Source of the DNA: a virus
IMG/VR virus record: IMGVR_UViG_3300007734_000575
Coordinates: 1-32,035 of that record
Strand: one strand, 5' to 3'
DNA length: 32,035 nt
Below, in pieces: positions 2,537-26,685 of the stretch (within the stretch, counting starts at the first letter, position 1; every line of letters begins with the position of its first letter). A program made the translations under genes and the position numbers. The notes under the pieces were generated by a model, which searched no databases, was not told the origin of the DNA, and worked only from the letters and a program-made list of their open reading frames with translations.

Positions 2537-3012
2537 CTTTTGGTGCATTTCCCAGGTCAGGTAATCATTTTTTACAAAACATAGTTAAATGTAATTGGAT
2601 AAATCATAGAATAACTGAGTTTGAAACATTAGAAAATGTTATTACTTTGATTAGGAATCCACTTGAATGTATTCCAAGTTGGATAGTAATGGTCGATGAT
2701 TGCCGAACAAATAGAGCAGAAAGTGTTCTTGAATGGTATTGTGCATATTATCAAAAATGTAAAGAATTAAATATTCTTGTCATCCCATTTGAACAACTTA
2801 TTTCTGAACCTTTGTTTTGTATAAATTATGTTTATAAAAAATTAGGTTTTGAATTATTAGAAACCCTTGATTATGATTTGTCTACCAATTTTCATGGTCC
2901 AACAAAAGATAAATCTGATTTTAATAAAATAGTTGAAGAAATGAAAATTGCACCCAATTTTCATTTTGCTATGGATTTATTCAAGGAACTGTGCGTACCC
3001 CTCGTTGGCTGA
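2524..3012 (+). CDS. sulfotransferase-like P-loop protein
   Basis: The product has 162 residues. Residues 7-17 (GAFPRSGNHFL) match the 5'-phosphosulfate loop of PAPS-dependent sulfotransferases (PRSGTxxL). Residues 40-53 (ITLIRNPLECIPSW) match the 3'-phosphate motif RNPxDxxxS. A later segment (ILVIPFEQLISEP) resembles the YExL-SDP region of the family. At 162 residues it is shorter than typical enzymes (about 250-300), so it is a minimal or truncated member; the catalytic His is not certain. It overlaps the upstream gene by 13 bases and is very AT-rich. Placement next to fibre genes suggests modification of a surface glycan or a virion part; this is inference. Confidence 0.65.
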   Translation: MGQITFGAFPRSGNHFLQNIVKCNWINHRITEFETLENVITLIRNPLECIPSWIVMVDDCRTNRAESVLEWYCAYYQKCKELNILVIPFEQLISEPLFCINYVYKKLGFELLETLDYDLSTNFHGPTKDKSDFNKIVEEMKIAPNFHFAMDLFKELCVPLVG

Positions 3013-6940: not shown

Positions 6941-7156
6941 GTGGAACCAGTCTGGGTTCCAATCATCGTCGCAATCATCATGGGACCAATTGTTGTCGTC
7001 TTACAACGACTCCGAAAAGAAAACACAGACCAACATGCAGAAGGACGCATTCTATTACGGGTCATTGGTAATAAGGTGGACAAAATTGGCAGCAAAATTG
7101 ATGGGCATATTGGTTGGCATAATGGTATTAAAGACAGTGTTGAGAAAGAGGACTAA
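6941..7156 (+). CDS. single-pass membrane protein with coiled-coil tail
   Basis: The product has 71 residues and a GTG start. It begins with a membrane segment (VPIIVAIIMGPIVVVL), followed by a basic turn (QRLRK) and a heptad-like segment (RVIGNKVDKIGSKIDGHIGWHNG). This architecture resembles the short membrane proteins annotated as DUF2746-like in actinophages, from memory and unverified. An overlapping frame (6930-7163) is polar and treated as a shadow. The stop overlaps the portal start (TAATG). It might be a holin, spanin-like or superinfection protein; I cannot choose. Confidence 0.6.
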   Translation: MEPVWVPIIVAIIMGPIVVVLQRLRKENTDQHAEGRILLRVIGNKVDKIGSKIDGHIGWHNGIKDSVEKED

Positions 7157-9024
7157 TGGCTAGGACAACAAATTCCGAATACATCAAAAACTATAGAGAT
7201 AAAATTGAACAATCTCGTCGTTGGCGAGAGCAAGAAAATTACGATGATTTGTGGACACGCATGATTGACATGTATCGTGGCAAACAATATAAAGTTCAAA
7301 CAGAAGAAGACAGACTTTTAGTTAATATGGCTTTTGCCACTATTAACGTAATTTCGCCAAGCGTCTCAGTTAACCATCCGAAAATTACAGTTAATGCTAA
7401 ACGTTATGAGGATGCTCCAAGAGCAATTGTTACAGAAGAAATTGTTAACTATTGGTGGAAACATTTTGAATGTCAAAAAGAGTTTCGCCGTGCAGTAAAA
7501 GACATGCTCATTGTTGGTCATGGTTGGGTTAAAACTGGTTATCGTTTTGTTGAAAAAGATGTTAACGAGTATGAAAGTTCTGACGAACTTGCATCAGCAG
7601 CACCTGAATCAATCACAGAATCTGATTTGGTTATAACAGAAGATAGACCATTTGTTGAACGCATTTCTCCTTTTGATGTTTTTGTTGACCCAGATGCAAC
7701 AAACATGTCTGATATTAAATGGATTGCTCAAAGGGTAAAACGTCATCTTAAAGAAGTCAAAAAAGATAAGAGATATAATGTTTCTGCAAGAAACGAAGCA
7801 TCTCCATCACATTATTCTAAATGGGGTGTAGATAGCAATAATGGAACTTTGCGTCCAAGGCGTTCAGAAGCAGAAGATGACTCGTATGTAGAAATTTGGG
7901 AATACTACGACATTGACCGTGGAAAAATGTCGGTGTTCTGTAATGGTGGAGACAAGTTCCTTGTTAATCCAATGGATATACCCTTTGCATTTGGTCATCC
8001 ATTTGTTATGTTGCGCAACTATGAAATCCCAGAATACTTTTACACAATGGGTGAATTAGAAGCAATTGAACCATTGCAACTTGAATTGAACCAAACTCGT
8101 ACACAGATGATGAATCATCGTAAACGGTTCTCACGCAAATGGCTGTATAAAGAATCAGCATTTGACGCTGATGGTCGTTCTGCACTTGAATCAGATGAAG
8201 ACAACGTAATGGTTCCAGTTATCTCTGATGAACCAATCAGTGGTGTAGTTGGACCAATGCCAGCAGTTATTAGCCCACCAGAGTTTTATAATCAGTCGGA
8301 ACTTATTTCGCAAGATATTGACCGTGTTTCTGGTTTGTCAGAATATCAGCGTGGTGGTTTGCCAGAGATTCGTCGTACAGCAACCGAAGCAGCAATCTCA
8401 CAAGATGCTGCCAACGCTAGGTCTTCGGATAAGTTGGCTATTATCGAGCGAGCAATCGCAGATTGCGCTCGCCGTCTAGTTATGCTTGCACAGCAATACA
8501 TGACTGGCGAACAGGCTGTGCGTGTTATTGGACAATCACAACAACCGGTATGGCTGAACTTTGACAGAGACTATTTGCAGGGTGAGTTTGACTTTGATGT
8601 TGAGGGTGGTTCAACTGCTCCAGTTAACGAGTCTTTCCGTCGTCAGATGGCTTTACAAGTTGTGGATGCTATGGCTCCTTTTGCTGGTGCTGGAATTGTG
8701 AATATGCCTAAGTTGGCTAATTATGTTTTGCAATATGGTTTTGGTATTCGGGATGCTGCTTCTTTTATTCAGGAACCACCTCCACCACCTCCAATGGCTC
8801 CAGAGCAAGGTAATCCACCACAGGGTCCACCGCCAGAACAGATGCCACCTCAAGGCCCTCCTCCTGGTCAACCAATGCCACAGGGTCTTCCTCCTGAAGC
8901 AATGGCTCAAGGCATGCCACCTACTGGTGGTATGGCGATGCCATCAAATATTCCGCCAGAAATATTGGCTCAACTTTTGGCTAATGGTGCTCCATTGCCA
9001 AATACGCAAACGGGACCTGCTTAA
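7156..9024 (+). CDS. portal protein
   Basis: The product has 622 residues. Portals form the dodecameric channel at the capsid vertex through which terminase packages DNA and to which the adaptor binds. It lies after TerL and before the scaffold and capsid genes, the canonical place. The long helical segment around LISQDIDRVSGLSEYQRG and RRTATEAAISQDAANARSSD, followed by ERAIADCARRLVMLAQQYM, is characteristic of the P22-like portal clip and stem region. The last 90 or so residues are Pro/Gly/Met-rich low complexity (PPPPPPMAPEQGNPPQGPPP), probably a flexible tail. It starts within the preceding stop. Confidence 0.9.
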   Translation: MARTTNSEYIKNYRDKIEQSRRWREQENYDDLWTRMIDMYRGKQYKVQTEEDRLLVNMAFATINVISPSVSVNHPKITVNAKRYEDAPRAIVTEEIVNYWWKHFECQKEFRRAVKDMLIVGHGWVKTGYRFVEKDVNEYESSDELASAAPESITESDLVITEDRPFVERISPFDVFVDPDATNMSDIKWIAQRVKRHLKEVKKDKRYNVSARNEASPSHYSKWGVDSNNGTLRPRRSEAEDDSYVEIWEYYDIDRGKMSVFCNGGDKFLVNPMDIPFAFGHPFVMLRNYEIPEYFYTMGELEAIEPLQLELNQTRTQMMNHRKRFSRKWLYKESAFDADGRSALESDEDNVMVPVISDEPISGVVGPMPAVISPPEFYNQSELISQDIDRVSGLSEYQRGGLPEIRRTATEAAISQDAANARSSDKLAIIERAIADCARRLVMLAQQYMTGEQAVRVIGQSQQPVWLNFDRDYLQGEFDFDVEGGSTAPVNESFRRQMALQVVDAMAPFAGAGIVNMPKLANYVLQYGFGIRDAASFIQEPPPPPPMAPEQGNPPQGPPPEQMPPQGPPPGQPMPQGLPPEAMAQGMPPTGGMAMPSNIPPEILAQLLANGAPLPNTQTGPA

Positions 9025-11940: not shown

Positions 11941-12153
11941 AACCAATCGGCGAAACTTGCTCATACTCTATACGGGGAGCCAACTACTAAGCACTCCCGT
12001 CTTGCCCATGCAGAAGGCGCACGCCTTGCTGCTCCATCAGGTCCATATATCGGACGTAATCGTTGCACAGCCAACGATGATACATGTGAGGGTCCTAAAG
12101 CCCGTGGGACAGATTTCTGTATCGGACATCTAAGAAATAAGGGTCAGGCTTAA
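11938..12153 (+). CDS. small Cys/His cluster protein
   Basis: The product has 71 residues. Its C-terminal half carries Cys43, Cys50, Cys61 and His64 (RCTANDDTCEGPKARGTDFC, then IGH), a likely zinc-binding site of the treble-clef or short finger kind. The N-terminal half is polar with several His residues. It sits between the head genes and the connector, with its stop overlapping the adaptor start (TAATG). The start codon abuts the CTATTGGT leader motif rather than a Shine-Dalgarno. Similar Cys-rich miniproteins occur near the head-tail genes of aquatic and actinobacterial phages; the function is unknown. Confidence 0.6.
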   Translation: MNQSAKLAHTLYGEPTTKHSRLAHAEGARLAAPSGPYIGRNRCTANDDTCEGPKARGTDFCIGHLRNKGQA

Positions 12154-12842
12154 TGGCTATAACACTCACAACATTACGTTCACAGGTTCGTGACATGTCC
12201 GACCTTGATGAAGTGGATTTGAGTGACGCTGTTATTGACCAGTTTGCTCGTGAAGGCTTTCAACGCATTTATGCGTTAGAACGCCGTTGGCCCATTCTCC
12301 AAGAAACATATACATTTAATACAGTCGCTAATCAACGTGAGTACACAATATCTACAATTGGGGATATTCGAGAAATCATTTCTGTGGTAGATACGTCTAC
12401 TCAGGGTGCCAGACTAACCTTGATTGATTACAACGATGCTGAGGGTATTTGGCTTGGCAACTTGGATGTTGCCAGCCGACCATACTTTTATAGTTTTTGG
12501 GACAAAAAAATACAGTTGTGGGCTAAACCAGACATTGTGTATTCGATGACTGTTCGTGCTTTCCGTAATCCTGTTTATACTTGGCTAACGAACATTACAG
12601 AAAGTATTGACCTTGATGAATGGTTTCATGCCATTCTGCCTTACTTTGTGCTTGCTCGTGTATATCAGCGTCAAGAAGACTCTGACCTTGCAAATATGTA
12701 TCTTAAATCTTTTGAAGAGGGTGTTGCTCTTGCTCGTCGTGACTTGATGAAAGCATCAAGTGCACAACCGGTTGTTATGTCTGGTGGAAAACAGTATCCA
12801 ACTATGAAGCGTTGGTTGCAGACTCTTGGTAGGACTTTATAA
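12153..12842 (+). CDS. head-tail adaptor, P22 gp4-like / tubular A-like
   Basis: The product has 229 residues. It begins with a helical region (TLRSQVRDMSDLDEVDLSDA followed by FAREGFQRIYALERRWP), passes through beta strands (YTISTIGDIREIISVV) and ends with a helical domain (DEWFHAILPYFVLARVYQRQ, EDSDLANMYLKSFEEGV). This order fits podoviral adaptor proteins (P22 gp4, T7 gp11 type) that bind beneath the portal. It is immediately followed by the nozzle gene, as in those phages, with TAATG coupling at both ends. It supports a short-tailed virion. Confidence 0.8.
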   Translation: MAITLTTLRSQVRDMSDLDEVDLSDAVIDQFAREGFQRIYALERRWPILQETYTFNTVANQREYTISTIGDIREIISVVDTSTQGARLTLIDYNDAEGIWLGNLDVASRPYFYSFWDKKIQLWAKPDIVYSMTVRAFRNPVYTWLTNITESIDLDEWFHAILPYFVLARVYQRQEDSDLANMYLKSFEEGVALARRDLMKASSAQPVVMSGGKQYPTMKRWLQTLGRTL

Positions 12843-14449
12843 TGGTTCAAGTTCTTATTGAACGTCGTGATGATTTTACTGGTGGTTTAAATCTTCGTGC
12901 TGACCAATTTCAGTTGGCTAACAATGAGTCTCCTGACATGTTGAACATGGAGATTGACCCTCGTGGTGGTTTGTTTACTCGTGGAGCATTTAGAGATATT
13001 AATTCCACTGCTGTGTCTGGTACTTGGGCTCCTAGGCGTTTAACTTGGTTTAAAGGTTCGTCACAGTATTTGATGTTGACTACAGCAACATCTGTTTATA
13101 CTTCTACTGGAACAGATTTTACAAGACTTGATTTTGGGTCGGGTACTCCTGTTGTGTCTGCAAGCACAAATGGTTCATCGTTAGCCCAGTGGGGCGACAC
13201 GATGTATATGACTACTGGTCAGGCTGGTGTTGCTTCTTATAAGTGGAAAGTTGGCGATACTTATGCAACTGCTTTAACTGCTAGTGGTCCTACTTGGCAG
13301 GCTTATGCAAGTCCTGTTGGTGGTTATATGCCTAAAGCCGAACTTGCTATTCAGCATACAAACAAAATGTTTGTTGCATACACAAAAGAAGATGGGACTG
13401 TTTATCCCAATAGACTTCGTTGGTCTCATGAAGGTTTACCTACTGATTGGCTTGCTGCAGATTATATTGATTTCAATGGTGGTGGTAATGGCATAACTGG
13501 TTTGGCTGTTGTTGCTGGACATCTTGTTATTTTTAAACCACAGGCTGTTTATGTTTTGTTTGGTTATGACTCAACTGACCATCAGGTCGTTGAGTTATCT
13601 TCTAGTCTCGGTGCAGACAGTCCATCATATGTTGCACAGTCCGAACAGGGTGTATATTTTTATGTTCATGCTAAAGGATTATTTTATTATAATGGAAATA
13701 CAGTTGTTGACTTATTCCAAAATCTAAAAGCAATGTATCCGCTTGGATACATTAATAGTAGTTATGACGAAAAAGTTACCGTATCCTATGTTGCTCGTCG
13801 TGTTTGGTTGAGTATTCCTTATTCAACTGGTGCTCCAGCAACTGAGGCAACTATTAATCTTATTTATGACCCAAGTATTACTGCTAATGGTTCTTGGACA
13901 AAAGTTTCTTCTGGTGATGGTTATGGTCTTGTTGGTGGAACAGATTTTAAAACTACTGCTGGTATTGCCGTACCATTGATGATTCATCCAACTAAACCCC
14001 GTGTGTTAGAAATTGAAATTTATTCTAGCGAGACAGATTTGATTGCTGGTACTGAAACAAATTTTGATTCTTATTATCGTACTGGTTGGGTTGATGGAAA
14101 CAACTATTCTATGAAAAAAATGTTTCGTAGACCAGATTTGGTTCTTAAACAGGTTGATACTCAACGTACTTTGAATATTAAAGTTTTTCATAATTTTGAA
14201 GAAGCAATTGGTAATGAGCGTAAAAGTATTGACATAATTTTACCACCTTCTGCTAGCGGTGGTTTGTGGGGAACAATGCGTTGGGGAACTGGAACTTGGG
14301 GTGTTGTTGCACAAGGTGCACAAGTTATTCGTGGTTCCAATCTTGGTTTGGCTCGTTCTGTGCAATTATTGTTTACTGGTCCTGCAGGTGGAGAATGGGG
14401 ATTAGACAGTATTGCTTATAAATATAATAATCGAAAGGTTACTGGATAA
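12842..14449 (+). CDS. tail nozzle / stabilisation protein, P22 gp10-like
   Basis: The product has 535 residues, almost entirely beta. It begins DDFTGGLNLRADQFQLANNE and SPDMLNMEIDPRGGLFTRGA, the classic opening of podoviral nozzle proteins. It continues through propeller-like repeats (RLTWFKGSSQYLMLTTATSV; LRWSHEGLPTDWLAADYIDF; AVVAGHLVIFKPQAVYVLFG). Such proteins form the hexameric tip tube below the adaptor and attach fibres. Its start overlaps the adaptor stop by one base and its stop overlaps the next start by one base. Confidence 0.85.
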   Translation: MVQVLIERRDDFTGGLNLRADQFQLANNESPDMLNMEIDPRGGLFTRGAFRDINSTAVSGTWAPRRLTWFKGSSQYLMLTTATSVYTSTGTDFTRLDFGSGTPVVSASTNGSSLAQWGDTMYMTTGQAGVASYKWKVGDTYATALTASGPTWQAYASPVGGYMPKAELAIQHTNKMFVAYTKEDGTVYPNRLRWSHEGLPTDWLAADYIDFNGGGNGITGLAVVAGHLVIFKPQAVYVLFGYDSTDHQVVELSSSLGADSPSYVAQSEQGVYFYVHAKGLFYYNGNTVVDLFQNLKAMYPLGYINSSYDEKVTVSYVARRVWLSIPYSTGAPATEATINLIYDPSITANGSWTKVSSGDGYGLVGGTDFKTTAGIAVPLMIHPTKPRVLEIEIYSSETDLIAGTETNFDSYYRTGWVDGNNYSMKKMFRRPDLVLKQVDTQRTLNIKVFHNFEEAIGNERKSIDIILPPSASGGLWGTMRWGTGTWGVVAQGAQVIRGSNLGLARSVQLLFTGPAGGEWGLDSIAYKYNNRKVTG

Positions 14450-15338: not shown

Positions 15339-15977
15339 ATGGCACAAGGCGGAACTGCAGACCATCCAAATACTAGAAGTACTGGTGTTAAGAGGTCTAC
15401 TATTTATCCAGCAAAAAATCCTGTTGTAGCAACAGTTGCTGGTCCTTCGACTACTGGTATTACCCAGCCACCAGTACAACAGCCAAGTTTTAATATAAAC
15501 CCTAGTGCAAGTGTTGGGCAAAATATTCGTTCTTCAGATGTTTATGGTGCAAAAAATTATTCTACTCCTTGGGCTGATGCTAACGCTTCAGCACAAGCAA
15601 TTGCTGCTGCTGCGTTGGGTCAGCCTTCTGCTTTTCAATCTGGTGTAAGAGGTGTTGGTGGTTCTGGTTCTGGTGCCGCTGCTGGACCAAAGTATGGTGA
15701 TGTGACTGACAGAATGAAAGTTACCGAAAATGCTAGACAATTTGGTATTTCAACTGCAGCAGACAAAGCACAAAACGATATAGTAAATGGCTTAAATCAA
15801 GCACAGTTTGATTTACAGGTAGCGACTACTGCTCAGGGTCGTGCTGACGCTAAAGCAAAATATGATGCTTTAAAAAATTATTATGATTCTGGTCAGTGGA
15901 AATCTGGTTACGACAAGTTAAACACTATGTACAGACAACTACAATACTGGTGTTACTGGTCTTCAAGGTACATATGA
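15339..15977 (+). CDS. 5' part of a frameshifted virion protein gene
   Basis: This frame encodes 212 residues of a Gly/Ala/Asn-rich protein. Its last thirteen residues (QLQYWCYWSSRYI) are unlike the rest. The +1 frame, open from 15922, continues with matching composition (TDNYNTGVTGLQGTYDRSQS) straight into the next open frame at 16012, which has no good start signal. A single +1 shift near 15930 would join them into a product of about 452 residues. No recognised slippery sequence or homopolymer lies there, so a true mutation or a single-base assembly error is likelier than programmed frameshifting. Probable role: internal or ejection protein. Confidence 0.65.
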   Translation: MAQGGTADHPNTRSTGVKRSTIYPAKNPVVATVAGPSTTGITQPPVQQPSFNINPSASVGQNIRSSDVYGAKNYSTPWADANASAQAIAAAALGQPSAFQSGVRGVGGSGSGAAAGPKYGDVTDRMKVTENARQFGISTAADKAQNDIVNGLNQAQFDLQVATTAQGRADAKAKYDALKNYYDSGQWKSGYDKLNTMYRQLQYWCYWSSRYI

Positions 15978-16011: not shown

Positions 16012-16698
16012 TTGGCTCAAGGTTTAACAGACCAGGGTTATGCTACTTTACAAAATTATTTGCAACAGAATCCAAATAATGCTTATGCTGGTCTTCAGCA
16101 ACAGGTTCAGTCTGTTGCAAATCCAATGGAACAGTTTCTAAGTGCTTATGGTGTGAGCGGTCAACCTGTTCAAGCACAAGTTGCTGCAGAGCAGTTGGCT
16201 GGTCAGCAGGGTGCTGGTGCGTTTAATACGTTGGCAGATATTTTAAATCGTAATTCACAGCAGTCTAATTCTTCTCGTATGGCTGAGATGCAGATGGCTC
16301 AAACTATGGCTAATGCTGGTTTGGGTGCTAATCGTGCAAATTATCAGGCACGGAATGCCGAGGCTCAGGCGCAGGCTTTGGCACAGTTGCAACAGCAGTT
16401 GGCTCAGAATCAGTTTGGTGTTCAACAGAATCAGATGCAGGCTGGTGATGCTGCTCTTCAAGCCATTCTTAATGCTACGGGTGACTTCGGTAATGGTGTT
16501 CCAGCAACTGGTGGTATTGGTAACGGTGGCACTGGTAACGGTGGCACTGTTTATAATGACCTGGTAGAACGTAATCCTGGACCCGTTAGTGGCATTGATG
16601 AATCTACACGGGTTCCAGAAGTTACCCCAGATATTCTTGAAGCATTACAAAGAAGTTTGGCTGGAATGAATTTCGGTCAAGGCTTCCTGACTCGATAG
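16012..16698 (+). CDS. 3' part of the frameshifted virion protein gene
   Basis: The frame is open from 15922 to 16698, but its first possible start codon is a TTG at 16012 with no Shine-Dalgarno. It is Gln/Asn/Ala-rich and helical (RMAEMQMAQTMANAGLGANR; AQAQALAQLQQQLAQNQFGV), with a short Gly repeat GNGGTGNGGT. Composition continues that of the upstream frame at 15339, so I treat the two as one protein of about 452 residues broken by one base. Independent expression from TTG cannot be excluded. Its end is followed by a leader motif and then the next gene. Confidence 0.6.
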   Translation: MAQGLTDQGYATLQNYLQQNPNNAYAGLQQQVQSVANPMEQFLSAYGVSGQPVQAQVAAEQLAGQQGAGAFNTLADILNRNSQQSNSSRMAEMQMAQTMANAGLGANRANYQARNAEAQAQALAQLQQQLAQNQFGVQQNQMQAGDAALQAILNATGDFGNGVPATGGIGNGGTGNGGTVYNDLVERNPGPVSGIDESTRVPEVTPDILEALQRSLAGMNFGQGFLTR

Positions 16699-16721
16699 TA
16701 ACGAAAGCGACTATTGGTATG
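16698..16721 (+). promoter_or_regulatory. second copy of the GTAAC-N8-CTATTGGT leader motif
   Basis: GTAAC at 16698-16702 and CTATTGGT at 16711-16718 directly precede the ATG at 16719. Spacing is the same as at 11917-11940, while the eight intervening bases differ (GAAAGCGA versus AATTCAGT). GTAAC overlaps the final TAG stop codon of the upstream gene. Function unknown. Confidence 0.4.
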
Positions 16722-17894
16722 GCTCCGCAACCAATTGACCCACGATATGGCACCCCACAACAAATGGGTTTAAGTTGGGAACAATTCCTTCCTTATATTG
16801 CTATGGCAAACAATAAGAAGGGTTCTATGAACTCTGATATATCTACATTGTTTGACCCACAGTTTGGCATTATGTCTAACTCTTATACAGAACCTTCTCA
16901 AATGTCCGACCAACAAATTGAAGATTTGTATGGTCGTACCACTTCGGCAATTAGACAATCTAGTGACCCACACTTACAGGGTATTTTGTCTGATATACAA
17001 AATGGCAAAAGTGCTTTTGAAATAAAACAGGCTGTAATGAATGGTGTTAACAGTGGTGTAATTAAAAGTGCAGATGGAACTGGAAAAGAATATACAGATT
17101 TGGTTGATGAACTTTTTAAAGAAAGTCAAACAATCAATGAAAAGAAATTTGCCCAAGCAAATCAACAGGATATTTATGAGAAGGCTGGTCTTCCAAATCC
17201 AAATATGGGATTTGACCCACAACAAATGTATCCAAAGTCTTTTAGTCCCATTGATGAAGGTGTGGCGCAATCCAAGCCTGGTACTGATGCTGCGTTGTCT
17301 GCAATTAAAGCAAAATATGATGCTATTACTCAATCACAAATTGTTAACCCTAAATCAGAATCTAAATCTATTGATTTTTTTATAAAAAATCTTGGTACAA
17401 AAACTGGTGGAAAAAAGGTTCGTTCCCAACAGGAAGCAAATCGTCTGAGTGTTCTTGCTCAAAGAATTAAAGATACTGCTGCTGGTAAGTATGTTTATTC
17501 TGAAGTTAATCCTGATGGTTCTGCGAAGGTTTATCAAAAATCAGATTTGCCTAAACTTATTGCACAACTTGAACAAGAAAGCGGATACAACCTTGATATT
17601 GGTGGTTCCCCTACTTTGAAAGATACAGCAAAAGTTAAAAGCAAAGATAAGTATATTCAGGACGCCAATCAACAACTTGAGATGGAACGTGCTGGTGGTG
17701 CTGCCAAACAGTTGAAATCTACTTTTGACCCTGGACATGTTGCTATTAATCCTTTTGATAAAGCGGCAATGGCAGAACATGTTAAACAATTAGTTTCTCA
17801 GAAAATTTCTGAAGGACTTGCACAACGAGGAGAAACACCATTTAATTTGGCGATGCTACAACGGGCTTCTTTGAATAAATCTTCTAAAGGATAA
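16719..17894 (+). CDS. internal virion protein candidate
   Basis: The product has 391 residues, polar and largely helical, rich in Lys, Gln, Asp and Ser, with no signal peptide or membrane helix. Notable segments are SWEQFLPYIAMANNKKGSMN near the start, EANRLSVLAQRIKDTAAGKY in the middle and EHVKQLVSQKISEGLAQRG near the end. It precedes the giant protein by two bases after its stop and is probably co-translated with it. By position it belongs to the DNA-ejection or virion-interior set. It starts at an ATG abutting the CTATTGGT leader motif. No enzymatic motif is seen. Confidence 0.6.
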   Translation: MAPQPIDPRYGTPQQMGLSWEQFLPYIAMANNKKGSMNSDISTLFDPQFGIMSNSYTEPSQMSDQQIEDLYGRTTSAIRQSSDPHLQGILSDIQNGKSAFEIKQAVMNGVNSGVIKSADGTGKEYTDLVDELFKESQTINEKKFAQANQQDIYEKAGLPNPNMGFDPQQMYPKSFSPIDEGVAQSKPGTDAALSAIKAKYDAITQSQIVNPKSESKSIDFFIKNLGTKTGGKKVRSQQEANRLSVLAQRIKDTAAGKYVYSEVNPDGSAKVYQKSDLPKLIAQLEQESGYNLDIGGSPTLKDTAKVKSKDKYIQDANQQLEMERAGGAAKQLKSTFDPGHVAINPFDKAAMAEHVKQLVSQKISEGLAQRGETPFNLAMLQRASLNKSSKG

Positions 17895-17896
17895 TA

Positions 17897-20800
17897 ATGG
17901 CTTCTCAACAAGATTTGTTGGCAAACCTGCAAGCGTTAACCCAGCAGGCACAGGGTGGTATTCCACGCATGGTTGCTCCTACCTCTAGGACCAATGCACC
18001 AGTTTCCACTGCAAGAAAATTTTCTAGTTCCCCCGGTCTGACTGATATGTATGGTGGTCAACAACAGAATGCGGCTGGTGTAAAAACTTCTGTTGGACAA
18101 AATAAGTTGAACGCAACTGCAAGGGTTGCTTCTGCAAGATATCCAGGAATTACGGAACAGGTTGCTTCAGCGAAGGCTGGGCAACAAAAACCTAGTGGTG
18201 CTCTTGGTGTTCTTGCTGGCGTACTGGATAACCCTATTGCCAAAACTGTGCTTGCTCCTTTGGCAGTTATGGATTATGGTCGTCGTGCAATTATTTCTGG
18301 TGTTCGTGAAACCATAGATTTGTTGGATACAGATAAGAATACTAAAGCAAGTATTGGTGATTGGTTTAAACAAACCAAAGACCCCACATATGGTTTTGGT
18401 ACAGCGTTTCCAATGTCTGGAAAACTTGGAAGAGTTGTTGGTTTAGTTGGCGATTTGGCTCTTGACCCTATTAACTGGTTGACTCTTGGTGCTTTTATTC
18501 CAGAAGACCTCGCAATTCAGGGATTGCGAGAAGGGGCACAAGTTGGTGCACGAATTGCTGTAAAAGATTTGGCTGAGGCTAGTGCACATGAGTTGGCTTC
18601 ACTTGGACCTTCACAGTTAATCAACTTGCAGCGTGCCGCTGCAGTTGAAGAAAAAATTGCTTCTGCTGGTGTTAGTGCAAGAACTCTTCTTGGTAAAAGG
18701 TTGGCTAATACTTGGCAAGGTAAAACAAAGTTGGCTGCATTAGTTGACCAACTTGGTGGAAGTGCTGAACTCGTACAGGCTGTTGGTAAGAATGGTCGTC
18801 GTGCCATGAGGGCTGGTATTGACGGTACCGAAGAGGGTATCCGGATGGCAGAAAAACTTGGTTTAGGTAAATCAGGTTTGTATGTTCATGGAACAAAATT
18901 TAGAGTTCCATTTTCTGGTCCTATTGCAGATGTGCTTGAAACTGGTTTGGCTAGAACTAAGGGAACTCTTTTGAGGAGTGCTCCTATTGATTGGTTGGCT
19001 GAACATTTTATTGCTTCTGGAACCAATCAGCAACGAGCGATGCGTGAGTTGCGTCGTGGTTTAACTACAGGCAAGATGATGATTGATGGTGTTGAGAAAC
19101 CTTTGTCTGCTGAGGTTGCTCGTTATGCTGTTCGTTTGCATGGTATGGATTCTATTGCTCGTGGTATTGAAGAAGCGGCTAAAGATACTTATGCAAAACG
19201 TTTGCAAAATATGTTTAATGATTTTCCAGAAATTAAGGAAACAAAAGATACCCTGTATCAGTTTTTAGATTCTGCTCCAGAAAAATGGACTAGACCAATG
19301 ACTGATGTTGAGCAACGTGCTTATGACAAAATAAAGCCTTTGTGGGAACAAATGCACGGAGAAGTTGAACAAGCATTTCAAAAAGTTGACCCAAATTTTA
19401 CTCTTAATCGTTTTGAAAACTATTTGCCTCACATGATGACGGATGATGCAAAAAATTATATTGGCAAGCGCTCTTCTCAGTATGCAGAAGAGATTCGTCA
19501 ATATTTAAAAGTCAACATGACTGACCCTTCTGCTTCTTTCAAGAATCGTGGTTTGGTTAAGGATGCAATGTTTTTTGGTGAAAAACTTACTGCAGATGAT
19601 GTTGCTCAGGGTGTTAGTCGTTTGAATGAAATTGCTAGGTCAAAGGGTTTTGCGGGAAACTTTTTTGAAACAGATATGGAAACCATATTTAAAAAATATG
19701 GTGAACATTATGCATCTTCAATGAGCAACGCAGAGTTTATGCGTCTTGCCAAAGAGGGTGGAATTCTTGCTGAAGCAAAACAAATGGGTAATGTCAGTAA
19801 GGAGTGGTTGGGGCAACAAGCAAAATATGCTGAGTCATTGCGCACTGGTGTTAGTGCTTCGCATAAAGAAATGGCTCTTCGTGCCAAAGAAGCCATTAAA
19901 ACAATTAATGAATACATGGATGCTCTTCGTGGAAACGCAACTGGTAAAAATGCTGGTGGTCTTAAATATGAAGTCAAGGCACTACAAAAAATTCTTAAAA
20001 AAACTGGTACACCTGAAGAAACTTTTGCTGCTTTAACTGCTGCAAAAGAAGCACTCGTTGCCGCCCAAAAAGAAAGTCTTTCTTCTTGGGCTAACTATGT
20101 TAATGCTCTCGACAACGCAAGCGTAATTGTTCAATCAATGCAGGCACAGGTAGATAAAGTTGATAATGCCATCAATGAAGTGTTGAAGGAGATTGACCGT
20201 GTTGGTACTGATTATGCGCAAAACATTTCTAGAATTGGCGCACCTCTTGCGGAGGATGCTAGCCAAATAGATTCTGTTATTGGTAAAGCATTGGTTGATA
20301 ATCCAATGGGCATGGGTGAGCAGATATCTTATGATGATTTGATTAAGTCTTTGGATGCAAAGATGGGTGCTCTTGATGAGCAGTTAAGTTCTCTCACTTC
20401 TTCTTGGGATAGGTCTTTGGCCGTAGAGAATGTTGTGAATGATATTATTGATGGAAAAATTAAATTAGATGACCAATGGCATGTTTCTAGTTCCGACACT
20501 GGTGTTTCGGATTCTTTGCATGAAGCAATCTATGGTGAGATGGATGTAAAAAAACCTAAAGTTCTTGCTCAAATGAATAGAAGAAATATTTCCGCTATTT
20601 GGGATGAAGCAAATCTTACTCCTGAGATGAGAGTTATTAAATCAATCTTTGACCCAGAAGGAAAAATTACTTCTACTCGTTTGGGTCAGATTGGTCTTGA
20701 CGATACATATGTATCAAAAGTTGTTAATGGCAAAAGGGTCTATACGTCTGAAGTAAAGACTCGTGGTATTTATAGTCGTATTGCTTCCGGTACTACGGAA

Positions 20801-23800
20801 GCAAATAACATAACCGAACTGCGTGAGGCTGGTGTTTGGTTGATTGTGCGTGATACTTTGCATGACCCAGAGTATGCAAAATTAATTGCTAATGGTTTAA
20901 AAGACACAAGCACATCATTGGAGAAGGCTACATATAATCGTTATCAAAACTTGCAGGAGTTATTGTTACAGGCTCATGCAATGGGTGATTATAATTTTTC
21001 TACAAAAAGTGCAACTATTACCAATGGCATTGAAAGAACTCAAGCACAGATTTCTGGTCTTGAAGATAACCTGCAAGAAGTTATTGCTAGGTGGGAAACA
21101 GGTGAATCCCTGTTTCCATCTCAGGCAGAATACGATAGGGCCGTTAATGCTACAAGAGTAAAAATAGATAAACTACAGCAATCAATTATTAGACAGACAA
21201 AGGGATTAGATAAGTATCAGCAACTTGCTGTTTCAACTGCGACTACACCTACTGGTTATCGAGACCTTGTTTCTGATTTGGCTTCTGGTGTTCAGGAGTA
21301 CTATTTGCATAGGGAGACCACTCTTCATTTTAATCGTGCGATGCAAACGGCAGATACAATTGATATTGTATTGCCGTTGGAGTTGTGGAATACAACTTTG
21401 GCTGAGGTTGCAAAACCTTTGCTTTCTTCAAAAGTTGCATATAAGAAACAACTCGTAGAAGCACAACAAGTAATATCAGATTTGCAAGAAACTATAAACA
21501 AGACTGGTAACAATATTTCTGATGCAGAAATATTGACAATTCGTGAACGTCTTCTTGCTACGGAACAAACATCTTTGCGAACAAAAACTGTATCTAATGC
21601 AAAAAGACGCAATACACGTTTGCAGGGTTATTCAAATTTTATTTCCACAGAAGAAGCAGGAACATGGGGTCCGCAAAAAGAAAAAATTCTTGGAGAACTA
21701 TTATCTGGAGTTACAAATCAGTCTGAAAGAGATGCAATTCGCAAAAAAGTACTTGAACAAGTAGTTGAAGTTCCTAGTGTTGATGGTGCACAAACTGTAG
21801 TTAAGGGAACAAAAAATAGGGTTCGTGTTATTGAACGTGCCGGCGAGTGGGGACCACAAAAACAAAGACTTTTTGACGCAGAACTATCTCAATCAAATAA
21901 CATTGACAACTCTATTGTGTTTCGTGAAGAACTAGCAAAGATTTTTAGAGCAGAACGCAAAGTTGGTAAAAGTGGAAAAGTATTGGCAGATTCTGCACAC
22001 ACAACAGAAGAACTTGCTTTGTTGCGTAAAAAAGAATTGTTGGATAATCATTTTCCAGAACTTCGTTCTGTTTGGATTAAGTCAAGAACCTCTCAACGTG
22101 ATATCCTTTTCTACAAACACCCTAAAGCATTTGAACTTGAAAACAATGTAATTGCAGCATTGCAGGATTTAGGTCTGCAGTCCGACCTGCAAGCATCTAG
22201 GGGTGCCAGAAGAGGTGCACGTTCTCTTGTTCTTGGTGGAACTGGAGAAGCGATACTCGAGGGTATGTCCGTTGTTGGTCAAAGTGCCGAACAGCAGGCT
22301 GCAACTATTGCTGGAAAATATCGCAGTCGCATTCGTAGTGCTATTAATAAATTGGAAAGAGAAGTTCTCAAAAAAGAAACAGAATTGGCAAATCCAAAAG
22401 GAAATTTAACAACTAATGTTGGCGATGTATTACGTCAAGAAGTAAAAGAAAAAAAGGTTCGCATCACAGAACTTGCTAAACAGTTTGACGAAATAGACAA
22501 AGAGGTTGTCGTAGATAGAAAATTGGCGGCAGAACAATTAAAGAAACTTCAAAGTCAATCTAATATTCGAGCAGCAAAAGGTAGTCTAAAAAAACTTATT
22601 GACAATGGCGACCAATATGGTTATGCAAAATTGATTGGTCAAATTTTAACAGAAGGTACAAGTGATTCTGCTGTTGCTACATCAAGAAGGTCTTTGGCAA
22701 ATTTCTTTTCAGAAATTTTGGGTGGAGATACAAGTTACTATCTTCCAACTCTTGGTAGAAGAGAAAAAAGAACTATTAGTGAAGTGGATTCTTTTTTTGG
22801 TAGGACAACAAGAAAAATTGATAGTCATATAGTTGGTTTGAAGACTCTTGTTAATGACACTAATCTTCCAACAAATAAAATGTTGGAAGGTGTAGCCGGA
22901 GAAGTTGGAACAAGTGGAAGATATATACCTGGTAGTTGGCTTATGCGAATAGAACTTCGTGGTGCAGAAGGTATGGCTTCTGCCCTAGAAGAACATGCAA
23001 ATAGATTATTGACAGCAGTTGAAAATGTTAAAAGAAATCCTGTTGATATTAGACTTGCGGAAAAGCGTTTGGCTACCGCTCAACGTGCAGGAGTTCGTTT
23101 GCAGGCACAGATTGATGCTATGGCTGCAACACCAGACTTTGTGCGTGCACAGACAAGGTTGTCGGAACATCAAGTGATAATGGCTTTGGCTGGTGCTGAT
23201 ACCAAGGTTGCTGAGATGTTGGGTTTTACTAAATTTGAAATTGATTCTTTGTTTGATGAACCTTTGCGTCAAACCGATGTTCTCGGTTTGCGCAGGCAGG
23301 AAAAACAGTTAACATTCGAGCGTAATCGTTTGATGGCACAGCGTGAAAGAGTTGTTAAGTCACGTGGAATGTACGAAGCACGACAGATGCCTGTTGAGGC
23401 AAAATTGGTTGAGGTTGAAAATTCTTTGTTGGATGTTCAAAAGCAACTTATGGAGCATGAGAGTCGTGGTTCTGCTTTAGAGAAGTTGGGTTCTTTAACT
23501 AGGAATCTTGAGGACAGTAATTTACAAAAACAAATTGCTGCAGAGTCTGGTGTTGAAATTAAGTTTGCAACAGATGCACCAGTTGCTACTACTGGAACAT
23601 ACACAAATCCTCCTGCTGGAGAATTTAGACTGGAATCTACTGGTTCCAAAACTAGATATGCTGCTGAACCAAGCAGAAAACTTTCCTATACTCCTTCTGA
23701 GTTTATTAATCTTTTGTCCGACTATGGTGATAATCCGGTTTTGGAAAAAGTTGCAAATTCACGAAAAGCAAAACTTGTTAAAGCATGGAATTCTAGCAAT

Positions 23801-26161
23801 GAAGGTAGATTCTTGGATGAATACAAACAACTTCATAACGAGTTTGATGTATCCAATCATGGTGCTTGGATGTCAGATGGAACAAATGTAACCAAGCGTG
23901 AGCAAGCAATTCGTGCAGAAATTGATTCACTTCGTGAAACAAATAAACAAACACTTCTTGAAGTACCAAAGTTACAAAAACAAATTGTTGACATCATTGA
24001 TAACGAAACTGCATTAACTACACAAAATATTCCAAAGGGAAAAAATGTAGCCCTTGAAAGCAAAGTGCTTGCAGAAGAGGCAAAGGGTGTTGCAGAAGGT
24101 TTAAGATTAAACCCTTCTTCAACTTTGGATGTTCCACGTTATGCCGTACCAGATAAAGCAAAAATTGCTGGAAAGAAAGCCAACATTGTTGGCGAGATGG
24201 ATTCTATTGACCAAATTGTTAATGACCTTCAATTTGATAAAGTTGTTGAGCGTGGATTACAGAAACAAGCATTGGAATATATTGGTCGTCTATCTAGAGA
24301 TGAACAGATTCTTCTAAAAGAAAAAATAGTTGCTAATGCAAGGCTTGCTAAGGCAATGGAAACAAAAGAACTTATGCTTGATGGAAAACTTGCTAAGAAA
24401 GTTTCTTTTGCTTATGCGTTTGAAGTTACAGCAAAACAGGGTGTTGAGAAAGCACAGAAGGCTTTTGATAATGCTGTTCGTCTTAATTCTTGGGGTCCAC
24501 AAAGACTTGTGGACGCCCAACGTGCAGTAGATGATTTGGCTAAGATGGCTAAAGATGGTCGTTATTGGAAGTCCACCATTAGAGAAGGTGGCAACGCTGA
24601 ATGGTTGGCTGATGTAGACCAATTTATTGATGACTCTTCATATCTTATTTCACAGGTTTCTGCTGAAGGTATTCCAAAAGAAATTCGTGCAGTCACAACA
24701 GGATTTATCGAGGCAAGAACAGAGTATCTCACTAAGGCATCTGAACTTACTTCAAAACAGGAAGAGTTCTTATTTAATGAAGGTCTAAAGGGTATGAAGT
24801 TTGCTGGTACATCAAACAAATTTATTCCAATGGAACTACGTGGTAAAGTTCCAGAAGATAAGTTTAGTTTTGTTTCAGAGTTTGATAAAGGTTTTGTTCA
24901 GTTGAGTAAGTTCTTTCCGAGTATTCAAGTTAAAGAAGAGTTGGCTGGAATTATAAGTAATGTTCATAGACTTCAAGACCCTATTGTTGTGCGTGAGTTC
25001 TCGAACTTTATGTCCAAATACACAAAGTTCTTTAAGGCTTACGCCACTTTGAGTCCTGGTTTCCACATTCGCAACGCTATGTCAAATACATTCATGTTGT
25101 TTGCTGGTGGTGGAGATTTGAGCAATCTCAATGAAGGACTAAGGATGAGTAGCAGTTGGCTTGATGCTTCAAAGCGTGGTCTCAATGTTGAGCAGTGGAT
25201 TAAGGAACTTCCAGTTGAAATGCAAACTAAAGCAAAAAATTCTATGAGCGCATTCTTTCAATCTGGTGGTGGTATGACATCAGATTTCTTTGAAACAGGA
25301 AAATCTTTCCGTGGAACTAAATCATCTAAGCAGGTTGGTAGATGGGTTGAAAATCATTCACGCTTTATGATGAGTTGGGATGGTGTAGCACAGGGTCTCG
25401 ATGCTGAAGCAGCGGCAATCAGAACCCGTAGGTTCTTGATTGACTATGCAGATGTTTCTACTGGTGACAGAGTTATGCGTCAGATTGTCCCGTTTTGGAT
25501 GTGGACTTCACGCAACTTGCCAATGCAGATTAGCAACATGTGGATTAACCCGAAGGCTTATTCGGTTTACAATACTGTTAAGAGAAACTTCAATGCAGAC
25601 CAAGAGGGTGATGTTATTCCACAATGGATGCAAGAAATTGGAGCATTCAAATTGCCATTTGGTAAAGATGTATATGCCACACCAGACTTTGGTTTCAACA
25701 GAGTGGGTCAACAAATATCTGAATTCCAAGACCCACAACGTTTATTGGCTAACGTCAACCCTTTGTTGCGTGTTCCAGTTGAGTTGATGGGTGGAAGACA
25801 GTTGTATTCCAACCGTCCTTTCTCTCAGAACCCAACAAAAGTTGAGAATGGTGCAGGCGCAATCCTGCAACCATTCCTACAAGCACTTGGTTATGGTGAG
25901 ACTGGTCCTACTGGTGACAAGTTTGTGAATGATAAAGCGTACTATGCGCTGAGAAACCTTATCCCATTTGCAGGAACAGCGGAACGATTGACACCATCTA
26001 TTGACACATATCAACAACGTGGATATGTGAATCCATTACTTGGTTTCTTGGGTGTACCAGGAAGACAGGTTAAAGAAAAAGAAAAGCAAAATGAGTTAAT
26101 TCGTCGTCAAAAGGCAATTGAAGCATTGGTATCTAAACAGAAAGTATTGGAAGGAAAATAA
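17897..26161 (+). CDS. giant 2754-residue virion (ejection-type) protein
   Basis: One uninterrupted frame covers a quarter of the window; AAAGGA precedes the ATG. Near residues 100-125 lies a hydrophobic segment (ALGVLAGVLDNPIAKTVLAP), and near 180 LVGDLALDPINWLTLGAF. NRFENYLPHMM lies near 508. Residues about 700-2300 are mainly charged and coiled-coil. WGPQ(K/R) motifs sit near 1256, 1317 and 2198. The C-terminal region has LSPGFHIRNAMSNTFMLF near 2384 and DYADVSTGDRVMRQIVPFWM, then WTSRNLP, near 2515-2535; I recall similar motifs in giant proteins of other phages. No RNA polymerase, protease or transglycosylase motif is evident. It is probably ejected with the DNA, like T7 gp16 or N4 gp50, but this is inference. 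Confidence 0.8.
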   Translation: MASQQDLLANLQALTQQAQGGIPRMVAPTSRTNAPVSTARKFSSSPGLTDMYGGQQQNAAGVKTSVGQNKLNATARVASARYPGITEQVASAKAGQQKPSGALGVLAGVLDNPIAKTVLAPLAVMDYGRRAIISGVRETIDLLDTDKNTKASIGDWFKQTKDPTYGFGTAFPMSGKLGRVVGLVGDLALDPINWLTLGAFIPEDLAIQGLREGAQVGARIAVKDLAEASAHELASLGPSQLINLQRAAAVEEKIASAGVSARTLLGKRLANTWQGKTKLAALVDQLGGSAELVQAVGKNGRRAMRAGIDGTEEGIRMAEKLGLGKSGLYVHGTKFRVPFSGPIADVLETGLARTKGTLLRSAPIDWLAEHFIASGTNQQRAMRELRRGLTTGKMMIDGVEKPLSAEVARYAVRLHGMDSIARGIEEAAKDTYAKRLQNMFNDFPEIKETKDTLYQFLDSAPEKWTRPMTDVEQRAYDKIKPLWEQMHGEVEQAFQKVDPNFTLNRFENYLPHMMTDDAKNYIGKRSSQYAEEIRQYLKVNMTDPSASFKNRGLVKDAMFFGEKLTADDVAQGVSRLNEIARSKGFAGNFFETDMETIFKKYGEHYASSMSNAEFMRLAKEGGILAEAKQMGNVSKEWLGQQAKYAESLRTGVSASHKEMALRAKEAIKTINEYMDALRGNATGKNAGGLKYEVKALQKILKKTGTPEETFAALTAAKEALVAAQKESLSSWANYVNALDNASVIVQSMQAQVDKVDNAINEVLKEIDRVGTDYAQNISRIGAPLAEDASQIDSVIGKALVDNPMGMGEQISYDDLIKSLDAKMGALDEQLSSLTSSWDRSLAVENVVNDIIDGKIKLDDQWHVSSSDTGVSDSLHEAIYGEMDVKKPKVLAQMNRRNISAIWDEANLTPEMRVIKSIFDPEGKITSTRLGQIGLDDTYVSKVVNGKRVYTSEVKTRGIYSRIASGTTEANNITELREAGVWLIVRDTLHDPEYAKLIANGLKDTSTSLEKATYNRYQNLQELLLQAHAMGDYNFSTKSATITNGIERTQAQISGLEDNLQEVIARWETGESLFPSQAEYDRAVNATRVKIDKLQQSIIRQTKGLDKYQQLAVSTATTPTGYRDLVSDLASGVQEYYLHRETTLHFNRAMQTADTIDIVLPLELWNTTLAEVAKPLLSSKVAYKKQLVEAQQVISDLQETINKTGNNISDAEILTIRERLLATEQTSLRTKTVSNAKRRNTRLQGYSNFISTEEAGTWGPQKEKILGELLSGVTNQSERDAIRKKVLEQVVEVPSVDGAQTVVKGTKNRVRVIERAGEWGPQKQRLFDAELSQSNNIDNSIVFREELAKIFRAERKVGKSGKVLADSAHTTEELALLRKKELLDNHFPELRSVWIKSRTSQRDILFYKHPKAFELENNVIAALQDLGLQSDLQASRGARRGARSLVLGGTGEAILEGMSVVGQSAEQQAATIAGKYRSRIRSAINKLEREVLKKETELANPKGNLTTNVGDVLRQEVKEKKVRITELAKQFDEIDKEVVVDRKLAAEQLKKLQSQSNIRAAKGSLKKLIDNGDQYGYAKLIGQILTEGTSDSAVATSRRSLANFFSEILGGDTSYYLPTLGRREKRTISEVDSFFGRTTRKIDSHIVGLKTLVNDTNLPTNKMLEGVAGEVGTSGRYIPGSWLMRIELRGAEGMASALEEHANRLLTAVENVKRNPVDIRLAEKRLATAQRAGVRLQAQIDAMAATPDFVRAQTRLSEHQVIMALAGADTKVAEMLGFTKFEIDSLFDEPLRQTDVLGLRRQEKQLTFERNRLMAQRERVVKSRGMYEARQMPVEAKLVEVENSLLDVQKQLMEHESRGSALEKLGSLTRNLEDSNLQKQIAAESGVEIKFATDAPVATTGTYTNPPAGEFRLESTGSKTRYAAEPSRKLSYTPSEFINLLSDYGDNPVLEKVANSRKAKLVKAWNSSNEGRFLDEYKQLHNEFDVSNHGAWMSDGTNVTKREQAIRAEIDSLRETNKQTLLEVPKLQKQIVDIIDNETALTTQNIPKGKNVALESKVLAEEAKGVAEGLRLNPSSTLDVPRYAVPDKAKIAGKKANIVGEMDSIDQIVNDLQFDKVVERGLQKQALEYIGRLSRDEQILLKEKIVANARLAKAMETKELMLDGKLAKKVSFAYAFEVTAKQGVEKAQKAFDNAVRLNSWGPQRLVDAQRAVDDLAKMAKDGRYWKSTIREGGNAEWLADVDQFIDDSSYLISQVSAEGIPKEIRAVTTGFIEARTEYLTKASELTSKQEEFLFNEGLKGMKFAGTSNKFIPMELRGKVPEDKFSFVSEFDKGFVQLSKFFPSIQVKEELAGIISNVHRLQDPIVVREFSNFMSKYTKFFKAYATLSPGFHIRNAMSNTFMLFAGGGDLSNLNEGLRMSSSWLDASKRGLNVEQWIKELPVEMQTKAKNSMSAFFQSGGGMTSDFFETGKSFRGTKSSKQVGRWVENHSRFMMSWDGVAQGLDAEAAAIRTRRFLIDYADVSTGDRVMRQIVPFWMWTSRNLPMQISNMWINPKAYSVYNTVKRNFNADQEGDVIPQWMQEIGAFKLPFGKDVYATPDFGFNRVGQQISEFQDPQRLLANVNPLLRVPVELMGGRQLYSNRPFSQNPTKVENGAGAILQPFLQALGYGETGPTGDKFVNDKAYYALRNLIPFAGTAERLTPSIDTYQQRGYVNPLLGFLGVPGRQVKEKEKQNELIRRQKAIEALVSKQKVLEGK

Positions 26162-26685
26162 TGAGTAAGCGACCATATACAGGAAACAAAGATGGCGAAG
26201 CCAAAGGTCTCCGTCCGGGTATGAAAGTGTTCATTGATGAGACAATCAAGTTGTCTAATGGTGCACTCTGGAATAACGGTGACTTTGGTGTTCGCCCGAT
26301 GAGGGGCAAGGAGTCAATGAGTGTTCACGGAACTGGGCGTGCAGTTGACCTATCGTTCAGGCACATGCCGCCCAAGAAGGGTGTTAAGAACGGGAGGCTC
26401 GAGGCTTTGCGTGTACTAAAAATTATTGTTGCTAACGCAGATGCTCTAGGCGTTGAAGCAATTTTTGATTACATCGTCAAGCCTCATGGTCGTGCTTGGA
26501 TGTGTGACCGTAATGCTTGGTTAAATTATAAAAAGGAAACTATTCATGGGGGTGGTTCGGGGGACTGGCTACATTTTGAGGTATCTCCGGAGATGGCTGA
26601 TTCCGTTGAGAAAATGCGGAAAGCATTTGCTCAACTTGTAATTCCTTCACCTGAGCCTCAGGAAGAAGAACAGAAGCCTGCTTAA
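26161..26685 (+). CDS. M15-type peptidase, probable endolysin
   Basis: The product has 174 residues and its ATG overlaps the stop of the giant gene (TAATG). Residues 54-63 (SVHGTGRAVD) contain the HxxGxAxD zinc-binding motif, with His56 and Asp63; residues 135-140 (DWLHFE) provide the third zinc ligand His138. This is the layout of VanY/M15 D-Ala-D-Ala or L-Ala-D-Glu peptidases that cut peptidoglycan cross-bridges. No signal peptide or cell-wall binding domain is seen; the tail is acidic and Pro-rich. It could be the lysis endolysin, needing a holin, or a virion-associated enzyme. It is the last rightward gene. Confidence 0.85.
   Translation: MSKRPYTGNKDGEAKGLRPGMKVFIDETIKLSNGALWNNGDFGVRPMRGKESMSVHGTGRAVDLSFRHMPPKKGVKNGRLEALRVLKIIVANADALGVEAIFDYIVKPHGRAWMCDRNAWLNYKKETIHGGGSGDWLHFEVSPEMADSVEKMRKAFAQLVIPSPEPQEEEQKPA

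Follow-up and report, generated by a model that had tools for sequence, protein, structure and literature searches.

The window analysed here, the whole stretch of DNA under study, is a 32,035-base IMG/VR record that is classed as linear and may be a fragment; four relatives (L003, L005, L007 and L021) lie on contigs of 39.4–39.8 kb. Its virion genes run from terminase, portal, scaffold and capsid through an adaptor and a likely tail nozzle to a giant gene (Table 1), which is followed by a 174-codon gene and, 3' of that, by a block of leftward genes, among them RusA, primase and a DnaB-like helicase. The giant reading frame has 2754 codons, begins with ATG and is open throughout, as judged from the ORF listing and translation. 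The five remaining frames over the same positions contain 82–307 stops apiece and no open run longer than 130 codons. Relatives of the product are full length, one (L002) with 86% identity over the alignment and 17 further aligned proteins with 24–44% identity, and the giant gene described in an earlier note on this DNA is thereby confirmed. The same note had placed it between internal-protein candidates and the lysin gene. Virion genes do lie upstream, but the 174-residue product taken for a lysin had no Pfam or PHROG match. Ahead of the terminase gene, a gene of 511 codons (2991–4526) touched PA14 at E 3e-4, below the curated cut-off.

Relatives of the 391-codon gene directly upstream were found at 53 loci including the window (some of these being one contig counted twice), about 50 bases or less from the giant gene. 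The two ORFs preceding it, which are among the upstream internal-protein candidates, turned out to be two parts of one gene in relatives. The ORF at 15339 (212 codons) matched residues 11–177 of a 367-residue ORF in L002 at 44%, and the ORF at 16012 (228 codons) matched residues 207–366 of the same ORF at 75%. The parts are 34 bases apart, most relatives have about 370–470 codons here, and the division may reflect a frameshift, a fault of assembly or a genuine split. The giant gene of relatives is preceded by two conserved genes, of about 270–470 codons, at the place that corresponds to genes 14–15 in T7 and 7–20 in P22. Compared with T7 gp14, gp15 and gp16, P22 gp7, gp20 and gp16 and N4 gp51, both upstream families gave scores equal or close to those of 10 shuffles apiece. 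In phages Jasmine, Shocker and DS1 the giant gene has genes of about 240 and 420–440 codons ahead of it and a lysis gene after it; these upstream genes did not match the two upstream profiles, and the likeness is one of order and size only.

Table 1. Genes of the virion module and features of the giant protein in the window.
Feature	Position	Strand	Basis
Terminase	5108–6700		
Portal, P22/SU10 type	7156–9024	+	PF16510 and PF23899 above cut-off
Scaffold and capsid genes			Between portal and adaptor in gene order
SU10-type adaptor	12153–12842	+	PF24175, E 2.2e-16
Likely tail nozzle	12842–14449	+	Position; phrog_3287 virion structural protein, E 1.6e-14
Gene single in relatives, first part; probable third ejection protein	15339–15977	+	L002 match
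Second part of the gene starting at 15339	16012–16698	+	TTG start as listed; L002 match
391-codon gene; probable second ejection protein	16719–17894	+	Family adjoining the giant gene
Giant gene; likely gp16-type ejection protein	17897–26161	+	ORF and translation, family, no cysteine
N-block, residues 92–638	18170–19810	+	Profile in 69 of 70 distinct full-length relatives; model of residues 70–680
GDLALDPINW, residues 185–194	18449–18478	+	Pairs with the GAGVDPLSY stretch of T7 gp16; half-block test
Counterpart of T7 gp16 511–837, residues 371–633	19007–19795	+	Structural alignment; sequence profile agrees in register
YLPH, residues 509–512	19421–19432	+	Pairs with YVPH of T7 gp16; half-block test
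Variable linker, residues 639–2314	19811–24838	+	Length variation in relatives; composition
C-block, residues 2315–2753	24839–26155	+	Model; C-terminal region of JC1 gp69; BFVD neighbours
LSPGFHIRN, residues 2385–2393	25049–25075	+	Conserved columns
PFWMWTSRNLP, residues 2532–2542	25490–25522	+	Conserved columns
174-codon gene	26161–26685	+	Family in 49 loci including the window

Several properties of the giant protein had been read from its sequence in the earlier note. The hydrophobic N-terminal segment is present, with a Kyte-Doolittle maximum of 1.34 over 19 residues at 102–120; about 1.6 is customarily demanded of a membrane helix, and we therefore regard the segment as mild. The long regions described as charged coiled coil are indeed charged and poor in proline, while coiled coil as such is backed only indirectly, by this composition and by weak profile matches of the alignment to solved helical bundles and coils (E 0.0009–0.08). 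The coil and helical-bundle matches, and one to MCM4_WHD at E 0.024, were ascribed to composition. Both motifs singled out in the C-terminal block, LSPGFHIRN and PFWMWTSRNLP, sit in conserved columns. Searches of the protein against Pfam, PHROG and PDB sequences returned nothing usable. No enzyme family was matched in Pfam at E up to 1, which agrees with the earlier statement that polymerase and muralytic motifs are absent, and among 19 family members no enzyme family was found in a credible position (E up to 0.1).

A first scan of viral contigs yielded 22 loci with relatives of the giant gene, and the window protein was aligned with those from 18 of them (alignment A1). Conservation along A1 was bimodal, being high at about 101–200 and 500–640 and then at 2350–2750, and low in between. 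In the phage collection the only direct match was MW202803, a protein of 1312 residues annotated as 'chromosome segregation' in a circular 42-kb genome labelled Podoviridae. A shorter relative (L023) matched Microbacterium phage Shocker (E 2e-3), Shocker gp37 matched Arthrobacter phage Jasmine and its relatives as well as Cellulosimicrobium phage DS1, and a distant Cohnella member matched Paenibacillus phages API480 and SV21. With a profile from the 19 window-family members alone, the N-block matched Shocker and Jasmine (E about 1e-7) and the C-block matched Shocker (3e-8) and DS1 (4e-5); among 3433 ORFs the giant ORFs were the sole matches of this profile.

Searching viral contigs with the C-block alignment gave 178 relatives, the best 80 of which were retained, several of them on contigs already met in the first scan; eight genome contigs, mostly MAGs of mixed phyla, also carried relatives. 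At E below 1e-10 the C-block was present in 117 ORFs among 8521 searched. Nineteen of the 117 gave no N-block match: one was API480 gp16, and the remaining 18 were truncated at the 5' end. Of the 70 distinct proteins that are full length (866–3069 residues), 69 had both end blocks, as judged with an N profile that was rebuilt over four rounds on the same ORF set and whose sensitivity is therefore not independent. The linker between the blocks varied from −7 residues (ends overlapping) to 2046 across the family and measures 1677 in the window protein, where its charged, proline-poor sequence is probably helical. Stretches of T7, N4, P22, Akoni and Burro gave no match to the N and C profiles at E up to 1. 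The member of 866 residues, with both blocks, is encoded on a 115-kb Cohnella nanjingensis contig (L117:8660–11257), perhaps in a prophage. For API480 gp16 (L125:12564–17459) the C-block scored 87.1 by hhalign, an N-block could not be recognised, and the chain continues for 288 residues beyond the C-block match.

The N-block was modelled from a 57-row alignment (pLDDT 75, pTM 0.57) and the model was compared with the PDB. T7 gp16 occupied the top two rows among 323 chains aligned, 9jyy_I with Z 7.4 over 214 residues (rmsd 7.7 Å, 12% identity) and 7eyb_I with Z 7.2; the following row stood at 5.5. Helical models can attain Z 7.4 by chance, and we therefore compared the N-block with T7 gp16 by sequence. 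The earlier note had proposed HHpred-type comparisons with T7 gp16, N4 gp50 and large polyvalent protein domains, and in the first of these the N-block rose above all controls: hhalign against 31 T7 gp16 sequences scored 61.2 (E 4.3e-6, prob 87), compared with at most 27.5 in 20 column shuffles and 21.8 for the reversed profile. The aligned part, residues 450–523 with gp16 603–679, lies within the structural range. The half of the N-block with GDLALDPINW scored 37.7 against gp16 and the half with YLPH scored 39.3, while shuffles (n = 40 for each) reached no more than 21.1 and 22.3, respectively. The two motifs are spaced by 319 residues in the window protein and by 327 in T7. At the YLPH site, 46 of the 56 aligned N-blocks with a residue there carry P and 30 of the 56 carry H; the YVPH site of gp16 has P in 18 of 18 and H in 8 of 18, so that the H of YxPH is not fixed. 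The computed evidence of model and profile thus makes the N-block distantly homologous to the central part of T7 gp16.

This relation does not extend to the whole of gp16. The N-terminal lytic transglycosylase domain of gp16 had no Pfam match in the window protein (E up to 1), and for this reason we do not file the protein as a member of the T7 gp16 family; we take it as a distant gp16 relative that would work like gp16. The lytic transglycosylase domain of ejection proteins is phage-specific and is missing in P22-like phages (PMC8954989). When the C-block was compared with T7 gp16 by hhalign the score was at control level, and no counterpart of the gp16 C-terminal region was seen. A look-alike of PFWMWTSRNLP occurs at about residues 1102–1118 of T7 gp16 (L122:8596–12549), at a similar distance from the C-terminus; profiles give no support to this pairing. 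A search of PDB sequences with the N-block profile missed T7 gp16, and AcrA and CpxP, which appeared in it at E 0.008–0.02, were rejected.

The C-block model (464 residues, 66 rows; pLDDT 87, pTM 0.77) had 29 matches in BFVD with E up to 0.001. Among the 50 BFVD matches listed, 17 were named large polyvalent proteins or LPD38 and many were nameless; Shocker stood at rank 7 and the single entry named LPD38 at rank 37 (E 4e-3). No PDB chain reached Z 5 among 908 chains aligned. By hhalign, the C-block scored 38.9 (E 6.4e-4, prob 28) against the C-terminal 815 residues of gp69 of Burkholderia phage JC1 (15 rows); controls reached at most 24.3 in 20 shuffles, 24.8 with the reversed profile and at most 22.9 in 60 further shuffles. 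The confident part comprises 55 columns at JC1 4095–4149, immediately ahead of the limits of LPD38, which the table of PMC9144972 gives as 4195–4401. A low-confidence extension of the alignment spans the whole C-block and pairs NPAFILRN with SPGFHIRN. Against full JC1 gp69 as a single sequence the C-block scored 33.0 (E 0.009), and the N-block found nothing in JC1 gp69. These profile comparisons indicate that the C-block is related to the LPD38-bearing C-terminal region of JC1 gp69. The step to LPD38 itself is weakened by the score of the reversed control and because the confident part precedes that domain. The proposed comparison with large polyvalent domains was thus divided in its outcome: there was a profile relation to the JC1 region, but Pfam LPD38 (PF18857) had no match in the window protein with E of 1 or less. 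A search with the LPD38 family's own record gave no match anywhere, controls included.

Particle morphology has been reported for two cultured phages of this group. Jasmine is described from electron microscopy as a podovirus with a head of 59.8 nm and a tail of 10.3 nm (PMC5513430), and API480 as a podovirus with a head of 58 nm and a tail of 12 x 8 nm (PMC6937236). In the API480 protein table, gp16 stands at the top of 47 proteins listed, with 71 unique peptides and 60.75% coverage, from an unpurified preparation that contained many non-structural proteins too, and long proteins yield more peptides; gp14 and gp15 are listed with 18 and 19 unique peptides. The table gives 128 kDa for gp16 and the sequence record a CDS of 1631 residues, the gene model having seemingly changed. 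For CsCl-purified virions of JC1, gp69 is reported with 51 unique peptides and a score second to that of the capsid protein.

The window protein contains no cysteine. Across the family 67 of 70 distinct members have none, with six cysteines altogether. Not one cysteine occurs in the 25,625 residues of ten giants (those of the window, MW202803, Shocker, Jasmine, DS1, API480 and MW202795, together with the unrelated or partly related ones of Akoni, Burro and JC1). By comparison, 65 other CDS of the same phages, hand-picked from annotation tables as a part of all CDS and mostly over 390 residues, carry 208 cysteines in 37,624 residues (5.53 per 1000); 12 of them have none, the longest of 700 residues. 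An alternative background of 9.5 per 1000 includes spurious ORFs and was set aside for that reason. Zero cysteine is no rarity in short virion genes, as in 14 of the 28 other listed window genes, each of 535 codons or fewer. Six of seven known ejection proteins are free of cysteine (N4 vRNAP, T7 gp15 and gp16, and P22 gp7, gp20 and gp16), and T7 gp14 has one. The family of the 391-codon gene has one cysteine in 10,825 residues (30 sequences) and the other upstream family two in 10,899. Absence of cysteine from N4-type vRNAP has been published (PMC3915230, PMC4837373), and it has been argued that disulfides would impede its passage through the tail (PMC3915230); a limited literature search found no general statement on cysteine lack in ejection proteins. 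The giants of Akoni (L026:17984–31447), Burro (L030:9189–22664), JC1 (L174:7124–20671) and N4 (L123:4524–15026), of 3500–4515 residues, have no cysteine, and those of Akoni, Burro and N4 show no detectable homology to the window protein. The lack of cysteine fits an unfolded passage but does not prove one.

We conclude that the window protein is likely to be an ejection (internal virion, pilot) protein, the largest one of a podovirus whose portal is of P22/SU10 type and whose adaptor is of SU10 type. The relation of the N-block to T7 gp16 and of the C-block to a JC1 virion protein, the podovirus particles of Jasmine and API480, and the API480 peptides uphold the earlier proposal of an ejection protein in a podovirus-like phage. 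That proposal also held that one protein may replace several ejection proteins; this finds no support, given the two conserved, nearly cysteine-free families that precede the giant gene in relatives. Copies of the giant protein and of the two upstream proteins would be packaged in the head, close to the portal. After adsorption the giant protein may travel in unfolded form down a tail about 10 nm long, a route that the lack of cysteine would suit. At the cytoplasmic membrane it would then fold again and make up the inner end of a complex for DNA entry, in the way proposed for T7 gp16. The C-block would have a part in packaging or in contact with membrane and DNA, and what the long linker contributes would be reach or a scaffold rather than enzymes. 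By analogy the protein may have a role as a DNA conduit. Because the named hosts are Gram-positive, such a conduit would not necessarily have an outer membrane to cross; this refers to the named cultured phages, and the host of the window's own phage may differ.

The protein could also be packaged and injected as a polyvalent effector, with cargo for host take-over or anti-defence in the linker as its point and the ends as packaging or injection signals. We consider this unlikely. The JC1 polyvalent protein to which the C-block is related has a DarB-like annotation, and the polyvalent and LPD38 names among the BFVD matches listed point the same way, but the Pfam searches of the window protein and of the 19 members turned up no credibly placed enzyme family, and in some full-length members the linker has about 50 residues or less, so that cargo is not needed. 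A tail fibre, an adhesin or a non-virion protein whose gene just happens to lie in the virion module might have been detected in unpurified API480 particles along with the non-structural proteins; the homology to T7 gp16, the relation to a protein from CsCl-purified JC1 virions, and the rank of the API480 member as the protein with most unique peptides, make this very improbable.

Length, helical character and late position would also suit a protein that serves a long tail as its tape measure, and one of 19 members touches Tape_meas_lam_C (E 0.082). None of the window genes matched a tape measure well, the best being the gene at 2991–4526 with phrog_8125 (E 0.014). The short tails reported for Jasmine and API480 (10–12 nm), the P22/SU10-type portal and adaptor in the window and the wide range of family lengths argue against a tape measure, which we regard as extremely unlikely. 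There is little probability, too, that the protein is of the same kind as the giants (over 4,400 residues) of Microbacterium cluster EK phages and Burro, reported as 13-kb genes of unknown role (PMC7302621, PMC8281081), with a band of about 250 kDa described for Burro virions (PMC7302621). Like the window gene, these occupy about a quarter of the genome in podoviral actinophages, and Akoni gp31 and Burro gp27 are free of cysteine. However, neither was matched by the C or N profiles, hhalign scores stayed at reversed-sequence level, and their giant gene precedes the portal gene rather than following the nozzle gene. Homology to an N4-type virion RNA polymerase found no support: in the comparison that had been proposed, N4 gp50 scored 21.9 and 21.3 against the two blocks, below the 25.5 and 25.0 of the reversed controls, and had no profile match. 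Single sequences of N4 gp51, P22 gp7, gp20 and gp16, T7 gp15, Akoni gp31 and Burro gp27 scored at or near one reversed control each against the blocks.

An ejection protein of this type links T7 gp16 with proteins annotated as 'hypothetical' in Arthrobacter, Microbacterium and Cellulosimicrobium phages; through the C-block the link extends to a Paenibacillus phage, and none of the linked phages is phi29-sized. It also ties the unexplained region around LPD38 to genome delivery. More tentatively, it is quite possible that podoviruses of Gram-positive hosts use a three-protein, cysteine-poor apparatus of gp16 type, whose largest member would combine a T7 gp16 core and an LPD38-type region with a helical linker of variable length. 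If this is true, LPD38 would act in virion proteins generally as a module for packaging or ejection, and ejected proteins, even those of unrelated families, could be recognised among very long late proteins by their lack of cysteine. How DNA passes a thick cell wall with a 10-nm tail becomes testable in cultured phages such as Jasmine.

Among known systems, N4 vRNAP (gp50) resembles the window protein in being giant, ejected and free of cysteine, but has no homology to either block, and the giants of cluster EK phages and Burro likewise share general features with it while differing in sequence and gene order. JC1 gp69, from a Bcep22-like phage, has 4515 residues, the related C-terminal region and no cysteine, and is a virion protein preceded by smaller virion proteins; it differs in that no N-block was detected and in its reported LT-like, methylase/helicase-like and LPD3 annotations, which are unmatched in the window protein. 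T7 gp16 shares the homologous middle, the collinear DP and YxPH motifs and the lack of cysteine, and its gene, too, is the largest among the internal-protein genes. The window protein departs from it in the missing transglycosylase match, the long linker and a C-terminus unrelated by profile, and its family includes members in phages of Gram-positive hosts. Jasmine gp28, Shocker gp37 and the giant protein of DS1 (annotated as hypothetical) belong to the same family by both blocks; they are shorter than the window protein (1743–1803 residues) and occupy the same place, ahead of an endolysin or endopeptidase gene.
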